From the NCBI RefSeq assembly GCF_005405465.1, contig NZ_BJEC01000012.1, positions 1 through 64,000 on the forward strand: DNA of 64,000 nt, in the 5' to 3' direction. The DNA comes from Weissella thailandensis (GTDB taxonomy: Bacteria > Bacillota > Bacilli > Lactobacillales > Lactobacillaceae). This document shows, piece by piece, positions 11,190 to 45,515 of this stretch. The notes under the pieces are model-generated. The model had not been told where the DNA came from, searched no databases, and saw only the letters and a program-made list of their open reading frames with translations. The translations under genes and the position numbers were made by a program. Each line of letters begins with the position of its first letter. The first letter of the stretch is position 1.

Positions 11190-11570
11190 ATGAAGGGATA
11201 TTACCAACCAGCAGGCCTACTTGGCTGGGTCAACTGGCTGTGGATTCTAATGATCGCCATGTTTGGCCTCGTCATGCTATTAGAGGTTACGTACCTTAAC
11301 GTTTGGACAATTGGTGCTGTGGTAGTTTTCATTATTGTTGCACTATTAACTTATTTTAGAAGAAGAGTCGCATTGGCTACAGATGCACTTTGGATTTTAC
11401 CAACGTTTGGCGTTCATACAGATAAATTTCGTTTTTCTGAAATGTCACATGTGCAGTTTACGAAAAGGACTGTTTTGTTCAGTTATGATGGTGAATATTA
11501 TAATTTCTGGATGAACCGGCGCTTTTTAAACAGCTTAAGAAAAGAAATTGAAGGAAAAACAAATGACTGA
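11190..11570 (+). CDS. ebsA: EbsA-like membrane protein
   Basis: 126 residues with two adjacent membrane segments (WLWILMIAMFGLVMLLEVTY and WTIGAVVVFIIVALLTYF), then a basic turn and a soluble domain with FSEMSHVQFTKRTVLFSYDG. Size, topology and position before a RluD gene resemble the EbsA family of Lactobacillales. Its role is unclear (first linked to pore formation and aggregation-substance expression in enterococci). It overlaps rluD by 8 bases, so the two are co-transcribed. The assignment is from memory of the family, so moderate. Confidence 0.55.
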   Translation: MKGYYQPAGLLGWVNWLWILMIAMFGLVMLLEVTYLNVWTIGAVVVFIIVALLTYFRRRVALATDALWILPTFGVHTDKFRFSEMSHVQFTKRTVLFSYDGEYYNFWMNRRFLNSLRKEIEGKTND

Positions 11571-12477
11571 GGAATCACTGACAATCACAGACCAGAAGGG
11601 ACGCTTGGATAAAGTTGTCGCTGATGCATTTACTGAATACACACGAACACAAGTATCAAAGTGGATCGATGAAGGTGTTTTAAAGGTCAATAAGGAAAAT
11701 AAGAAACCTAATTATAAAGTACGTCCTGATGATGTCATATCATTTGTTGTGCCAGAACCAGTTGCTTTGGATCTTAAGCCAGAGAATTTACCGCTGGATA
11801 TTGTCTATGAGGATGACGACTTATTAGTGGTCAACAAGCCACAGGGGATGGTCGTTCATCCTGCTGCTGGTCATCCGAATGGTACGTTAGTTAATGCTTT
11901 AATGTACCATACTGAACTGTCATCGATTAATGGTGTCGTTCGCCCAGGGATTGTGCACCGTATTGATAAAGATACGTCAGGCTTACTGATGGTTGCCAAA
12001 AATGATCAAGCACATGAGGCCTTGTCATCAGATTTAAAAAACAAGAAAAATTTGCGCCAATATTATGCTTTGGTGCATGGTGAGTTTTCTGAGAATAAAG
12101 GTACGATTAAAGCACCGTTGGGACGGTCAAAGATCAATCGTAAGAAACAAGCTGTTATTGCGGGTGGTCGCGATGCCGTTACTCATTTTGAAGTTGTTAA
12201 ACGATATGTAGGTTATACCTTATTACGGGTAACCTTAGAAACTGGTCGTACACATCAAATTCGTGTACACATGGCCTATATTGGTCATCCAGTAGCCGGC
12301 GACCCATTATACGGACCAAAGAAAACGTTGGCGGGCAATGGACAATTTTTGCATGCGGCTACCTTGGGCTTAACGCAACCAACAACAAAAGAAGCATTAA
12401 CATTTGAGGCACCTTTACCACAGTATTTTGTGGACGCAATGGCAGAATTAGAACCTTATGCAGAAGAAAATAACTGA
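11563..12477 (+). CDS. rluD: Pseudouridine synthase, RluA/RluD family
   Basis: 304 residues from the ATG at 11563 (GAAGGAAA site; an upstream in-frame start at 11548 is less well placed). Residues 10-75 form an S4 RNA-binding domain (GRLDKVVADAFTEYTRTQVSKW). The catalytic motif HRIDKDTSGLLM carries the active-site Asp, followed by ETGRTHQIRVHM and PVAGDPLYG, all typical of RluA-type enzymes. It converts uridine to pseudouridine in 23S rRNA, probably in helix 69 as for RluD. Other RluA paralogues are possible, so the exact target is inferred. Confidence 0.88.
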   Translation: MTEESLTITDQKGRLDKVVADAFTEYTRTQVSKWIDEGVLKVNKENKKPNYKVRPDDVISFVVPEPVALDLKPENLPLDIVYEDDDLLVVNKPQGMVVHPAAGHPNGTLVNALMYHTELSSINGVVRPGIVHRIDKDTSGLLMVAKNDQAHEALSSDLKNKKNLRQYYALVHGEFSENKGTIKAPLGRSKINRKKQAVIAGGRDAVTHFEVVKRYVGYTLLRVTLETGRTHQIRVHMAYIGHPVAGDPLYGPKKTLAGNGQFLHAATLGLTQPTTKEALTFEAPLPQYFVDAMAELEPYAEENN

Positions 12478-12545
12478 TAGTGCGCAAACCGTGCTGAACA
12501 TGATAAAATAGCTTTAGATAAACTGAATGAATGTAACTTTCTTAA

Positions 12546-12612
12546 AGTAATCCCGTGAGTTTACTAGGAGGTAACGTAATGAATAAGACCGAATGAGACG
12601 TTATCCTTTTTA
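12546..12612 (+). promoter_or_regulatory. PyrR-type attenuator
   Basis: A hairpin AGTAA / TTACT (12546-12550, 12561-12565) presents the loop TCCCGTGAGT, close to the PyrR binding loop (UCC-G-GAG). Directly after it GGTAACGT can pair with ACGTTATCC, followed by TTTTT at 12607-12611, a terminator. A second GAGAC...GTCTC T-run follows. With UMP, PyrR would hold the binding loop and permit termination. It sits before pyrR itself, the usual autoregulatory place. The loop is convincing; the terminator stem has a bulge. Confidence 0.65.
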
Positions 12613-12668
12613 GAAGTGATGGTGTCTCTTTTTATTAGTTGGAATCAATGAGAGAAAAGGAATAGATT

Positions 12669-13181
12669 ATGGCAAAAGAAATTGTTGATGCAATGGCGAT
12701 GCAACGAGCACTCACAAGAATTACATATGAGATTATCGAAAAGAATAAAGGGGTGACAAATCTCGCTATTGTCGGGATAAAGACACGTGGCGTCTTTATT
12801 GGTCAACGAATTGCTGATCGCTTGCAACAATTAGAAGGAGCATCAATTCCTGTTATACCACTTGATATTACACATTATCGTGATGATGATTCTGAACGTG
12901 CTGGTGAAAAATCATCTTTTAATGTAGATATCGATAACAAGCGAATTATTTTAGTAGATGATGTGCTATTTACTGGTCGGACGATTCGGGCAGCCTTAGA
13001 TGCCATTATGGACAACGGCCGACCTGCAGCTGTTAACCTAGCAGTCTTGGTGGATCGAGGTCATCGTGAGTTACCAATCCGTGCTGATTTTGTTGGTAAA
13101 AATATTCCAACAGCAACTTCTGAAAAGATTCGCGTTAACATGAAAGAATTTGACGGCCAGGACGGTATTGAAATCCGTTAG
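12669..13181 (+). CDS. pyrR: Bifunctional PyrR: pyrimidine operon attenuator / uracil phosphoribosyltransferase
   Basis: 170 residues, normal length. The PRPP-binding signature is [17 protein letters not shown] (about residues 97-113). The [10 protein letters not shown]-like region is conserved ([15 protein letters not shown]), as is [16 protein letters not shown] at the C-terminus. PyrR binds pyr leader RNA with UMP/UTP and has minor uracil phosphoribosyltransferase activity. It has its own attenuator upstream and is followed after 40 bases by a degenerate carA-carB pair, so the unit looks pyrimidine-responsive even though those enzymes lack catalytic residues. Confidence 0.93.
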
Positions 13182-13221
13182 TTTTTCAACGGTTAGACGG
13201 GAAGGAGGGATCGTTTAGCAT

Positions 13222-14328
13222 TTGCCAAACGAGAACTACGTCATGACAACACGTTATTTAATTTTACAAGATGGTACGGTATACGAAGGTGAAGCTTTTG
13301 GGGCACCAGCAACAACTTTTGGTGAACTAGTTTTCAATACAGCGATGACTGGCTATCAAGAAATTATCACGAATCCAATTTACTACAATCAAATTATCAT
13401 GTTTACGACACCAACAATTGGTGCGGCCGGTATCAATCATTATGCAGATGAAGCCATTGTCCCGGCAGTCAAAGGGGTGGTCGTACGTGAAATTGCGGAA
13501 ATTTCAACTAATCGTATCCGAGCACTTAGCTTAAATGATTATTTGAAAAGACATAATATTCCCGGTATCTCACAAATTGATACACGAGCATTAACAAGGC
13601 ATTTACGTGAAACTGGGATTCAAAAGGCATCAATTGTTGATCAACCAGATGACCATGCTTTTGATCAATTGCGAGCAATGGTATTGACTAACCAACAAAT
13701 TGCGCAGATTTCGACGCCGAAAGCTTATGCTAATCCAGGACGTGGCGCAAATGTTGTTGTGCTAGATTTTGGCCTTAAGAGTGGTATTTTACGAATGCTA
13801 AGCGACTTCGATGCGAATGTGACCGTATTGCCTTTTTCAGCGACATTTGATGAAGTGGCCAATCTTGATCCAGATGGTCTGGTCATTTCATCTGGACCGG
13901 GTGATCCGGCACAAGTTCCTGAAACAGCGCTGGATCTTATTCGTGAATTTGAGACACGCGTGCCATTGTTTGGTATTGGTTTGGGGCATGAATTGTTTGC
14001 GATAGCCAATGGGGCTAAAGTTAGTGAATTGACTTCAGCTCATCACGGTATGAATCATCCAATTCGTGAGCAAATCACGAAAGATATCATGTTTGCAACC
14101 CAAGGACAGGCATACTATGTTGATGCAAAATCGATTAAAGATACGCCTTTGTTTGTAACCCACATCGATATTACTGATAACCAAATTCAAGGCTTACGCC
14201 ATCGAGATTACCCAGCATTTAGTGTACAATTTTTTCCAGACGCAGCTCCTGGGCCATTAGAAGAAACACAGGCATTTGCTGAGTTCATGGAAATGGTGAT
14301 GGCCCGTCGAGGAGGTGGAACGATATGA
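13222..14328 (+). CDS. Carbamoyl-phosphate synthase small-subunit-like protein lacking its glutaminase triad
   Basis: Aligns over the whole length with CarA: N-terminal domain (YLILQDGTVYEGEAFG ... NTAMTGYQEI ... IDTRALTRHLRETG) and a class I glutaminase-like domain (LDFGLKSGILR, SSGPGDPAQVPE). The nucleophile motif GICLGHQ reads GIGLGHE (Cys to Gly at 13978-13980). YHPEAS reads FFPDAA (His to Phe at 14233-14235, Glu to Asp at 14239-14241). All three triad positions are lost, so it cannot hydrolyse glutamine in the normal way. Start is uncertain: TTG at 13222 suits the AAGGAGG site (13 bases away), while ATG at 13243 matches the family N-terminus but is 34 bases away. Overlaps the next gene by 4. 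Confidence 0.85.
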   Translation: MPNENYVMTTRYLILQDGTVYEGEAFGAPATTFGELVFNTAMTGYQEIITNPIYYNQIIMFTTPTIGAAGINHYADEAIVPAVKGVVVREIAEISTNRIRALSLNDYLKRHNIPGISQIDTRALTRHLRETGIQKASIVDQPDDHAFDQLRAMVLTNQQIAQISTPKAYANPGRGANVVVLDFGLKSGILRMLSDFDANVTVLPFSATFDEVANLDPDGLVISSGPGDPAQVPETALDLIREFETRVPLFGIGLGHELFAIANGAKVSELTSAHHGMNHPIREQITKDIMFATQGQAYYVDAKSIKDTPLFVTHIDITDNQIQGLRHRDYPAFSVQFFPDAAPGPLEETQAFAEFMEMVMARRGGGTI

Positions 14329-16793
14329 CAGAACGAGTATTAATTATTGGTGGTTCCGCTAACGATTTTGGCCGAGAAACTGAGGGTGATGTTGCAGCTT
14401 ATCAGGTTGTTCATGTACTGAAACAATATGGTCATGAAGTGGTCGTGGTTGATGACAACCCGTACTCCTTTACTAGCGCACGTCATGATATCCAAGTCAT
14501 TGAACAAACATTAACAGTTGAAAATCTGGTTCAAATTATTAATGATGAGCATATCACAGCGATGGTTGCGTCGGTAGGTGGGTCAACAGCCACACGATTG
14601 GGTGCTGATATCCTGAAACTTATGGGCAACGGTGCACCAACGGTTTTGGGGCTATCATTACCGGTCATGCAAGCCACCCAAAACACAAAATACCTACACG
14701 AGCGTTTGCAACAACTAAATATTCCAACAGTCCAGTCACGACTTGCTAGTAATGTGGGTGAGGTTTTTGATGCAACCAGAGATTTTGAGTTACCAGTTGT
14801 CATTAGACCAGTTGCGCCAATGGGCCAAACATTGCGATTACAGGTTAAAGATACAGATGATTTAGAGGAAGCGGCAGAAACCGCACTTGCTCGTTCAATT
14901 ACACATCAGGTAAATATTGACAAGAGTATTCGTGGGTACCAAGAAATTTCTATGTTGGTTATTCGTGATAAGAGTAATTCGACCATTTTAATTGGTGGTG
15001 TCGAGGATATGGATCCGGTTGGGATTCATTCAGCAGATTCAATTGCGATAACCCCAATTCAAACCTTGCCAGACCCGGTGTATCAGAAATTACGTGCTGC
15101 AGCATTCAAGGTTATTAGAGGCTTTGATGTCGTGGGACTATTAGAAGTCCGTTTTGCAGTGGACCCTAAAAATAATGAATATGTCATTACCCGTGTGACG
15201 CCTTACTTTGATCGAACAGCAGCCTTGTTGGTGGCTGCGACAGGTTATCCACTGGTTCCGGTGGTGGTGCGGTTAATGTTAGGTGAAAATATCGAAGATG
15301 TTCAGACACCGGTTATTGGTGCTAATCACACAGCATTATTAGAGCCAACGATGGACCACATTGTGATTCGTTTCCCAATTTTTTCATTTGGAGATTTTGA
15401 ATCAAATGGTGTTAAAACAGAGCACCGGTTAAATACAGTTCAAAAGTCAGTCGGAGCTACTATGGGAGTTGGTCGTAGTGTTGAAGAAGCCTTAGAGAAA
15501 GCTATTCGTGCGGCACACTTTAATAATCGTAATTTTTCACCAACTGTGATGAATGCGATAACTGATAATGAAATTATTGAGCAGTTGATTTACCCGCGTG
15601 ATAATCGAATCTTTGTATTAATGGAAGCATTGCGTCGTGGTTATACGGCTGATGAATTAGCAGAAATGACGAAAATAAATGCTTTTTATTTCTATAAATT
15701 GTCTCAAATCAATAAATTAGAAGAAACCGTTAAGAACAATGCTTGGCAAACAGATGTTTTGAAATTAGCAAAGTACTATGGTCTTTCAGATGGATTAATT
15801 GCTCGCTTATGGCATGCCAAGTTTGAAGAGATACGTCGTTATCGTTGGGATAATGGTATTTTGCCAACTTTTAAGGCGTTTGAACCCTCTGCTGGTGAAT
15901 TCGAAGAAGCAGCTAATCAATATTATTCTACTTTTGAGTCAGAAAATGAGAGTAATCGTTTAGGACGGCACTCTGTATTAGTCATTGGTTCTGGTGGGTT
16001 CCGTTTAGGGGATGGGGCAGCTGCATCTTATGTGATGGCGATGGTTGTCAAAGAACTACAAAACCAAAATATCAGTACGATTCTGATGAATAATAATCCG
16101 ACAGACTTGATGTTTATGTCAGAGTTAGGTAGCAAAAAATATTATGAGCCGTTAGAAATTTCTGACGTTATGAACGTCATTGAAATCGAACAACCTGTGC
16201 AAGTATTTGTACCAGGTAATCGTATTAAACTAATAAAGAGTTTGCGGGAAAATGGTGTTAACGTCCAGGTAATTGCTAAGGAAAAATACCTGCCAAGTAG
16301 TATGAAAGATGACTTACCATATACAGTAATCAACTACTTTTATGATGGACAAACTATCTATCTAATTGGCTTGGGTTATCAAAGCAACCAAGGAATTATT
16401 TTAGACCAAACTATGATGTCAGAGGAATTGTGGGAACGACTACCAAGGCCACGAATGAGCTCTGAAACACCAGGGCTTTATCAATTGATTATTAATCAAT
16501 TACCAAGTTATGATGAAAACCCGGCAATGATCGTGCGACCAATGCCGTTTACAGTGGTGGCTTTCTTAGACAAGGTCACGGGAATAGATTGGTTACGTTT
16601 AGTTATTCGTTATATGTTAAATCGTCAAACCTATTCCGAACAACAGTTTTTGGCGCAACTAAGTTCATTAAATTGGCGTGTACCAAAGGCGCAACTCGAG
16701 TATTGGGATGCAGATTTTGCGGAACATATGGAAATTAATGAAGAATTGGACAATGGTCGTTATGCGATTGGCGCAACTTACCGTATAATTTAA
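14325..16793 (+). CDS. Degenerate, shortened carbamoyl-phosphate synthase large-subunit-like protein
   Basis: 822 residues against about 1060 for CarB. Order seen: pre-ATP-grasp (1-110), first ATP-grasp (110-400), helical oligomerisation region (400-545), second pre-ATP-grasp (550-655), a remnant of the second ATP-grasp (about 665-770, e.g. FYDGQTIYLIGL), and no MGS allosteric domain. In the first ATP-grasp the Gly-rich loop after IRP is gone (MGQTLRL) and the metal region VIEMNPR reads ITRVTPY, with Gln to Arg in EVRFAV. GIHSADSI and KSVGATMGVGR are kept. The frame is intact over 822 codons, so it is expressed and probably selected, but normal catalysis is unlikely. Coupled to the CarA-like gene by ATGA. 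Confidence 0.85.
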   Translation: MTERVLIIGGSANDFGRETEGDVAAYQVVHVLKQYGHEVVVVDDNPYSFTSARHDIQVIEQTLTVENLVQIINDEHITAMVASVGGSTATRLGADILKLMGNGAPTVLGLSLPVMQATQNTKYLHERLQQLNIPTVQSRLASNVGEVFDATRDFELPVVIRPVAPMGQTLRLQVKDTDDLEEAAETALARSITHQVNIDKSIRGYQEISMLVIRDKSNSTILIGGVEDMDPVGIHSADSIAITPIQTLPDPVYQKLRAAAFKVIRGFDVVGLLEVRFAVDPKNNEYVITRVTPYFDRTAALLVAATGYPLVPVVVRLMLGENIEDVQTPVIGANHTALLEPTMDHIVIRFPIFSFGDFESNGVKTEHRLNTVQKSVGATMGVGRSVEEALEKAIRAAHFNNRNFSPTVMNAITDNEIIEQLIYPRDNRIFVLMEALRRGYTADELAEMTKINAFYFYKLSQINKLEETVKNNAWQTDVLKLAKYYGLSDGLIARLWHAKFEEIRRYRWDNGILPTFKAFEPSAGEFEEAANQYYSTFESENESNRLGRHSVLVIGSGGFRLGDGAAASYVMAMVVKELQNQNISTILMNNNPTDLMFMSELGSKKYYEPLEISDVMNVIEIEQPVQVFVPGNRIKLIKSLRENGVNVQVIAKEKYLPSSMKDDLPYTVINYFYDGQTIYLIGLGYQSNQGIILDQTMMSEELWERLPRPRMSSETPGLYQLIINQLPSYDENPAMIVRPMPFTVVAFLDKVTGIDWLRLVIRYMLNRQTYSEQQFLAQLSSLNWRVPKAQLEYWDADFAEHMEINEELDNGRYAIGATYRII

Positions 16794-41452: not shown

Positions 41453-41499
41453 TTGAAAACACCTCCTTTTTTTTGGGGGGTTTCACTTATTACAGTGAA

Positions 41500-41583
41500 T
41501 GTGATCAAGACATCGCGGTAATCCTTCGTCCATGGCCCACATTCCGTTTCCATGGCACTTAACGCATCTTAATCTACCCTGTG
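41500..41583 (-). promoter_or_regulatory. Tetrahydrofolate (THF) riboswitch
   Basis: On the minus strand the sequence carries the class core: GGGTAGATTAAGATGCG, CGTTAAGTG, GGAATGTGGG, GGACGAAGGATTACCGCG and the closing TCTTGATC. GATTAAGA (41567-41574) pairs with TCTTGATC (41503-41510) as P1. Just after it lies CCCCCC (41475-41480), complementary to the GGAGG before folT, so control is probably at translation start. A -10 TATAAT lies at 41600-41605. Ligand THF turns folate uptake off. Confidence 0.88.
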
Positions 41584-45308: not shown

Positions 45309-45327
45309 AATGTTACGTTAATGATTA

Positions 45328-45492
45328 ATAGAGGTTGCAACCAACAACAGTCACTTAGTGGAGTTCACACAGACAATGATACTAAGTAAAAGGGGCGGTT
45401 GCCGAAATGATACAGATTGTGTAACCCGTATCGTTGGGCTAATAGCGAAAAACTATTAGACTGTCGCTGAATAAGCGGGGAGCTATTGTCAC
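45328..45492 (+). promoter_or_regulatory. Lysine riboswitch (L box) aptamer
   Basis: Conserved L-box elements in order: AGAGGTTGC near 45329, AGTAAAAGGGGCGGTTGCCGA (about 45385-45405), GGGCTAATAG (45436-45445), ACTGTCGCTGA (45460-45470) and the closing AGCGGGGAGCTATTG. A strong terminator follows. With lysine bound, the terminator forms and the downstream lysine genes are shut off. Confidence 0.93.
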
Positions 45493-45515
45493 AGTCTTAA
45501 GGAATAGAAATGTGT

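Follow-up and report, generated by a model that had tools for sequence, protein, structure and literature searches.

Why should a genome retain, directly behind pyrR, both subunits of carbamoyl phosphate synthase (CPS), a textbook enzyme, in a form that has lost its catalytic residues? This question is posed by a locus of Weissella thailandensis (RefSeq assembly GCF_005405465.1) within positions 1 to 64,000 of contig NZ_BJEC01000012.1, the whole of which stretch is referred to here as the window. On its forward strand, pyrR (12669..13181, +; 170 amino acids; NF003548, 271.7 bits against a cutoff of 218) is followed by carA', encoding a dead CPS small subunit (13222..14328, +; 368 amino acids from a TTG start), and by carB', encoding a dead and shortened large subunit (14325..16793, +; 822 amino acids). 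A first-pass annotation, made from the sequence alone, had described the two proteins as catalytically degenerate and proposed a new role for them. The analyses reported here indicate that CarA' and CarB' almost certainly form a functional, conserved pseudoenzyme pair that probably performs an unrecognized noncatalytic job, and we consider it fairly probable that the unit of PyrR and this pseudo-CPS pair carries on a noncatalytic function inherited from the CarA of the pyrR locus. Numbers prefixed G, L, f, or g are working handles.

Catalytic state, fold, and selection of the CarA'-CarB' pair

Residues were scored by alignment to Escherichia coli K-12 CarAB, whose numbering is followed, and to the intact pair of the window's genome, and the alignment bore out the first-pass claim that catalytic residues had been lost within full frames of 368 and 822 amino acids. 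According to an excerpt of a review (PMC6245113), Cys-269 and His-353 are essential to glutamine hydrolysis. In CarA' of the window, C269 is replaced by G, H353 by F, Q273 by E, and S47 by I, with the Gly253 codon (13978..13980, +) aligning at the position of the nucleophile Cys269. The same loss was found in relatives, a search for which the first-pass annotation had proposed: position 269 is Gly in 64/64 aligned pseudo-CarA and Cys in 36/36 true CarA, while S47, Q273, and H353 are also lost across pseudo-CarA (Q273 remains in 4/64). L045 to L047 were dropped from the residue table, and near-duplicate loci were dropped from profiles, trees, and the position-269 count. CarB' of the window shows the replacements R129 to T, Q285 to R, E299 to R, N301 to T, and R303 to Y, at positions of the first ATP-grasp site, each of which is intact in 25/25 true CarB; its amino acids 290 to 293 (R-V-T-P; 15192..15203, +) stand at E. 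coli E299-P302, with E299 and N301 replaced, and R169, E215, and H243 are retained. Among the residues of the second ATP-grasp (carbamate kinase) site, R715 and E761 fall inside a deletion and Q829, E841, N843, R845, and R848 are replaced, with 84/162 residues left of the E. coli stretch 676 to 838. Moreover, no residue of the window's CarB' aligns past E. coli 940, and the C-terminal allosteric domain, placed at 933 to 1073 in the same excerpted review (PMC6245113), is absent. Judged from these alignments, the window's pair is not expected to hydrolyze glutamine, and most residues for both ATP-driven steps are gone. CarA' nevertheless scored over the cutoff in both CPS small-subunit models (NF009475, 417 bits versus 221; TIGR01368, 360 versus 307), while CarB' fell below it in TIGR01369 (462.7 bits, cutoff 1027, covering model positions 7 to 656 of 1052) and in NF003671 (446.7 bits, cutoff 599).

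The AlphaFold model of CarB' (predicted local distance difference test [pLDDT], 86.2; predicted template modeling score [pTM], 0.88) matched E. coli CarB in the PDB with Z 42.3 over 789 to 792 residues (3.1 to 3.2 Å, 26% identity), and the weaker model of CarA' (pLDDT 77.8, pTM 0.57) matched E. coli CarA with Z 34.2 over 349 to 352 residues (4.8 Å); as predicted by these models, both proteins keep the folds of the CPS small and large subunits. The CPS small subunit touches the carboxyphosphate and oligomerization domains of the large one, as an excerpt of the review states (PMC6245113), and these two contact regions are the domains that CarB' retains. In addition, the evolutionary distances of CarA' and CarB' co-vary across 32 loci (partial rank correlation 0.66 given RluD), with lower values for either subunit against PyrR (0.34 to 0.35, 32 loci). 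Co-variation and the retained contact regions thus support, but do not prove, a CarA'-CarB' heterodimer. Proteins of this fold might still catalyze something else, as a new ligase or amidotransferase-like enzyme, and another ATP-grasp reaction was among the roles first suggested: E215 is present in 63/64 CarB' and H243 in 54/64, and two g21 loci hold a complete first ATP-site residue set. Yet the nucleophile is gone in 64/64 CarA', and N301 and R303 are mostly lost from short-form CarB'; because the short form has R or K in place of E299 in 40/40 rows and lacks the core of the second ATP-binding site, the ATP-grasp suggestion found no support as a general role, and we regard a different reaction as improbable.

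The ratio of nonsynonymous to synonymous substitution rates (dN/dS), estimated by the Nei-Gojobori method (NG86), yields values that are rough because dS was high or saturated in many pairs; between the window and Weissella relatives, it was 0.009 to 0.066 for carA' and 0.022 to 0.065 for carB', compared at the same locus with 0.037 to 0.098 for pyrR, 0.030 to 0.065 for rluD, 0.019 to 0.046 for purB, and a higher 0.108 to 0.209 for prsA. In four species compared head to head, carA' (0.004 to 0.037) was lower than true carA (0.045 to 0.150) in 4/4. Lineages without full CarB or PyrB gave 0.009 to 0.029 for carA' (10/12 pairs unsaturated) and 0.012 to 0.116 for carB' (9/12 unsaturated), these being 12 pairs among 15 of 20 genomes, with G182, G053, G111, G060, and G299 left out. 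The pair is under strong purifying selection, which is what the dN/dS comparison proposed in the first-pass annotation returned for both genes between the window and other Weissella (0.004 to 0.066 for carA' and carB'). Disrupted frames in close strains, which would point to decay, were also looked for, and the frames are full in ten named relatives (L035 to L044). In the stretch analyzed of the Weissella confusa FS54 contig (L047, JACSZT010000005.1), blocks of ∼198 bases keep the strand of W. confusa DSM 20196 (L041) but follow one another in the opposite order, and the broken frame there is a garbled record rather than biology.

A decaying duplicate without function would fit the graded loss of domains across genera, the broken carB' frame of Limosilactobacillus fermentum DR9 (described below), and one stop in the draft genome G165. 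Nevertheless, dN/dS lies far under 1 in every unsaturated comparison, G165 holds the only frame with a stop among the matches listed, and Gly269 and a helix of CarA' are invariant; decay is rejected on the strength of dN/dS and conservation, and we give it next to no credence.

Distribution, origin, and pathway context of the dead pair

A profile built from 32 CarB' was searched against 301 Lactobacillaceae genomes, in which the weakest short-form genome (2.1e-237) was separated from the strongest best match to full CarB (2.9e-216). Results revealed short-form CarB' in 174/301 sampled genomes and 21/40 genera (hand count). The 39 representative short-form loci contain rluD in 38 and an adjacent pyrR in 37; the locus without rluD, L060, ends close to a contig edge. 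In further genera, the rluD locus holds more divergent dead pairs, with CarB' of ∼790 to 800 amino acids in g4, g9, and g35, full-length but degraded CarB' (∼1054 to 1067 amino acids) in g11, g15, g18, g21, g27, g37, and g40, ∼660 amino acids in g10, and 643 amino acids in one g22 genome. At two of the g21 loci (L145 and L151), CarB' keeps the first ATP-site set (RREHQENRR) alongside a dead CarA' and a dead second ATP-grasp, and such a pair could possibly be an intermediate with bicarbonate-dependent ATPase activity, as far as its residues indicate. A uracil-permease-family gene lies immediately 5' of carA' in 9/9 gap genes tested at divergent loci. In g25 and several g22 genomes, the rluD-pyrR locus is a functional operon, and the dead pair was not seen there. 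At the level of the order (246 genomes), no short-form CarB' appeared among the nonfamily matches listed, divergent forms not having been sought there.

In the plasmid search, the best match was one L. fermentum record (among the best 10 of 163 records). This record (L281, CP033372.1, L. fermentum DR9, "plasmid unnamed1," 760 kb) carries chromosomal-looking genes, namely, signal peptidase II, rluD, and carA'; pyrR is missing between rluD and carA', and further downstream is a gene of the carbonic anhydrase family.

With CarA and the first half of CarB combined, a quick tree placed all 32 dead pairs beyond one branch (Shimodaira-Hasegawa-like approximate likelihood ratio test [SH-aLRT], 100; 1 change). 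Since fast-evolving rows can attract each other, a single origin is consistent with this result but not shown by it. A single origin was also sought in the tree of CarA alone, which does not show it.

The full pathway is not always present beside the dead pair. A stronger CarB match was found in 138/174 short-form genomes and no full CarB in 36/174 (hand count), the latter defined by a best TIGR01369 match of 1e-123 to 1e-170, which is the short form itself, and excluding G291 (partial, 1.3e-281). PyrB was present in 9 of these 36 genomes and not over the cutoff in 27, and each of the 36 has one PyrR match. In the nine with PyrB over the cutoff and full CarB not found (G220, G028, G094, G104, G177, G197, G231, G289, and G165), carbamoyl phosphate may come from elsewhere, or the assemblies may have gaps. 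The first-pass annotation had also considered a regulator of the true CarAB, and the pair could act on, or exchange subunits with, the CarAB of the same cell, given the shared fold, the retained contact regions, and the 138 genomes with a stronger CarB match. In contrast, 36/174 genomes yielded no full CarB, 27 of them being also without PyrB over the cutoff, and selection on the pair is still strong in genomes with neither. As the pair persists without full CarB and PyrB, a general role in regulating either true CarAB or the pyr operon is disfavored, and we rate an action on true CarAB, or subunit exchange with it, as slightly more improbable than a different reaction.

A second alternative is that CarA'B' serves as an accessory partner of PyrR, adding a signal (e.g., bicarbonate, glutamine, or nucleotides) to the attenuation of pyr and uracil permease genes, by analogy with the proposed inorganic-carbon role of Lactiplantibacillus plantarum PyrR2, which is stated to respond to inorganic carbon in the part of the source available (PMC3582564). 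Adjacency of pyrR in 37/39 short-form loci is consistent with such a partnership, as is the fact that the PyrR of the locus is the single copy in 63/66 genomes tested, not all of which hold the pair. The window's genome, moreover, has a PyrR element ahead of a uracil-permease-family gene. Against this stand two genomes, G242 and G299, which yielded neither a PyrR nor a PyrB match, nor any CarB over the cutoff, yet still carry the full-length dead pair; other loci lack an adjacent pyrR, and the evolution of CarA' follows that of CarB' more than that of PyrR. We therefore hold a PyrR partnership to be unlikely. An inorganic-carbon sensor acting via PyrR2 initially seemed appealing and was set aside except as part of this alternative, as pairs exist without PyrR and G123 has one PyrR, located at rluD-pyrR.

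A role specific to pyrimidines meets the same difficulty, for the dead pair occurs in G242 and G299 without a PyrR match, and pyrR is not adjacent at L062, at L066, or in L. fermentum DR9; a specific tie of the pair to pyrimidine or uracil status is accordingly regarded as doubtful. Among eight PyrR elements tested from PyrB-less genomes, three precede Xan_ur_permease genes, one a major facilitator superfamily transporter, one a phosphoketolase, and one a tRNA synthetase; for the remaining two, the protein encoded next has no match in Pfam. In L194 (G086 contig 12), a PyrR-like element of 49.3 bits (below the cutoff) lies ∼180 bases 5' of the phosphoketolase gene.

The HAxDQxxAxV helix and a candidate inherited function

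If the pair is not catalytic, which part of it has been preserved? Thirteen columns are invariant across the 64 pseudo-CarA, and six of them fall within a 10-residue helix motif, HAxDQxxAxV, a degree of clustering that random placement matched once in 20,000 draws. The motif (CarA' amino acids 145 to 154; codons 13654..13683, +) is invariant in 64/64 pseudo-CarA and sits between the two CarA domains. It was first considered as a trait of pseudo-CarA only, which was rejected, its six residues being found in 15 to 21 of 36 true CarA. Sorted by whether a dead pair is present in the genome, true CarA showed at least four of the six motif residues in 30/31 cases without a pair and at most three in 32/32 cases with one; other Weissella contributed six true CarA, which retained 0 to 2 of the residues. 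This 63-row table excludes G174 (76% complete, pair status unsure), g29 rows, and an arginine-type CarA (L166), and the status "no pair" rests on a genome-wide CarA search in 16 genomes and, in the other 15 (L261 to L275), on a true carA in an operon with pyrR (accompanied by rluD in 14). Once the motif columns had been removed, a quick tree of true CarA and CarB offered four independent contrasts, and 4/4 fell as predicted (P = 0.125); an earlier 24-row tree gave 3/4 with one tie (P = 0.25).

The motif pattern is suggestive of a second function that was already present in CarA and was inherited by the dead copy. This would modify the "new role" of the first-pass annotation, of which the degenerate pair kept under selection stands, while the newness is called into question, as the helix suggests a function older than the loss of catalysis. 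On the preferred reading, CarA'B' would trace back to the carAB residing at rluD-pyrR(-pyrP) and form a CPS-like heterodimer with a noncatalytic task in nucleotide homeostasis, either as a regulator or as a scaffold. The PyrR leader would cause it to be made mainly at low pyrimidine nucleotide levels, and the pair would keep the second function of the pyrR-operon CarA, read out via the HAxDQxxAxV helix. A separate pyr operon, where present, would supply catalysis with a CarA that has lost the motif; once that operon had taken over, the locus copy may have been at liberty to turn into a dead CPS complex limited to this second function as the catalytic CarA lost the helix. That the helix of CarA bears an inherited second function strikes us as evenly balanced. 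The wider proposal, in which CarA encoded at rluD-pyrR in Lactobacillales would have an unrecognized helix-centered, noncatalytic function and live and dead CPS would divide the labor, the dead CPS persisting after pyrimidine synthesis is lost, falls just short of an even call. Either the "sensor" or the "scaffold" role named in the first-pass annotation may still apply. If the helix reading is true, a second function of CarA becomes testable, including in species whose sole CarA is catalytic.

Several observations weigh against this reading. With only four independent contrasts, the complementarity between helix and pair cannot reach 0.05. G285 is an exception, with carA at rluD-pyrR and the motif lost, and in three g29 genomes neither the motif nor a pseudo-CarA was found. 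Moreover, the motif is absent (0 to 3 of six residues) in 7/7 true CarA of families f5, f7, and f8 and present (5 to 6 of six) in 13/13 CarA of families f2, f3, f4, and f9; because presence and absence split by family in this way, it may be a lineage marker. As for the pair itself, constraint on carB' (dN/dS 0.022 to 0.059) is a little weaker than that on true carB (0.018 to 0.033) in 4/4 species, CarB' is far more divergent than CarA' across genera, and carB' of L. fermentum DR9 is not a single open frame (decay or sequencing error). The CarA-only tree requires four label changes (one row mislabeled) and sets the pseudo-CarA of G022 among the true CarA of its relatives (95/94), and mirror-tree correlations and AlphaFold models are no proof of a CarA'-CarB' complex.

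Locus layout, related systems, and neighboring elements

In the window, the conserved neighbor 5' of pyrR is the pseudouridine synthase gene rluD (11548..12477, +), a marker of the locus. Between them lies a PyrR-type leader (12535..12635, +) that matches RF00515 at 33.8 bits (E 0.003), with a stem resembling the binding loop (12536-12572, +) and a terminator-like hairpin followed by a U run (12595-12628, +; z -4.16 for 12595-12640 versus shuffles); folding of the whole 106-base leader was less clear (z -1.30). The PyrR-type attenuator predicted before pyrR in the first-pass annotation is thus likely in view of the hairpin and the family match, and the call stays subthreshold because 33.8 bits is under the RF00515 gathering score of 54. 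An alternative carA' start at ATG 13243, giving 361 amino acids, is suggested by homologues, and the carA' and carB' frames overlap by 4 bases. As first noted, no further pyr genes follow: none of pyrB, C, D, F, and E was found at the rluD-pyrR-carA'-carB' locus. A second, intact carAB, for which a check had been suggested, is present on contig 7 of the same genome (carB, 1058 amino acids) within pyrB-C-carA-carB-D-F-E, an operon with a PyrR element of 56.5 bits. A third PyrR element (47.5 bits, below the cutoff) lies 5' of a Xan_ur_permease (uracil-permease-family) gene, and the window holds the sole PyrR found in the genome. Among named species, those with the closest relatives of carB' are Weissella fangxianensis (98%), Weissella paramesenteroides (94%), and Weissella sagaensis and Weissella hellenica (85% each).

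Compared with E. coli CarAB (PDB 1jdb/1a9x/1c30), CarA'B' is alike in fold, in carA-carB order, in the domain layout of the small subunit, and in the first half and oligomerization domain of the large subunit; the E. coli enzyme has, in contrast, the glutaminase Cys/His, live ATP-grasps, and the allosteric domain. Pyrimidine operons of Lactobacillales led by pyrR, such as pyrRPBcarA of Lactococcus in the part of the source available (PMC10609543), share pyrR in first position, a PyrR-type leader (a likely one in the window), carA in the operon, and a uracil-permease-family gene, the last found in some divergent dead-pair loci, whereas the window's locus is without pyrB, C, D, F, and E and its carAB is dead. 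In L. plantarum, an excerpted account (PMC3582564) likewise describes more than one CPS-like pair, with PyrR outside the main pyr operon, in a system where pyrimidine, arginine, and CO2 converge; there, both CPS are described as carbamoyl phosphate makers, while the window's Weissella genome carries a single PyrR and a dead extra pair. Among the papers listed in searches of the open-licence PMC literature, none described a heterodimeric pseudo-CPS, in line with the first-pass statement that no such description was known.

Pseudo-paralogues have turned into regulatory subunits elsewhere, as in HisZ of HisG and the pseudo-dihydroorotase of some aspartate transcarbamoylases. By analogy, CarA'B' may likewise be kin to a biosynthetic enzyme that, although dead, persists for a noncatalytic role; unlike those cases, both subunits of the putative heterodimer are dead, and the pair outlives the pathway. 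Dead CarA' scores over the cutoff in NCBI curated "glutamine-hydrolyzing" models, a public L. fermentum record names it CPS small subunit, and the g11 pair with a full-length dead CarB' (L169) scores over the cutoff in both small- and large-subunit models. Metabolic models may therefore overstate pyrimidine and arginine capacity, as dead subunits carry CPS names and the short form occurs in 174/301 genomes.

On the 3' side of carB' lie a prsA-like gene and then purB. A conserved third downstream gene was considered and rejected, the position being held by prsA/purB in Weissella, by an NFACT protein at two loci tested, and by a MarR-type regulator at one. Elsewhere, the window contains a lysine riboswitch (45321-45493, +; RF00168, 108.7 bits) and a tetrahydrofolate riboswitch (41491-41583, -; RF01831, 69.4 bits).

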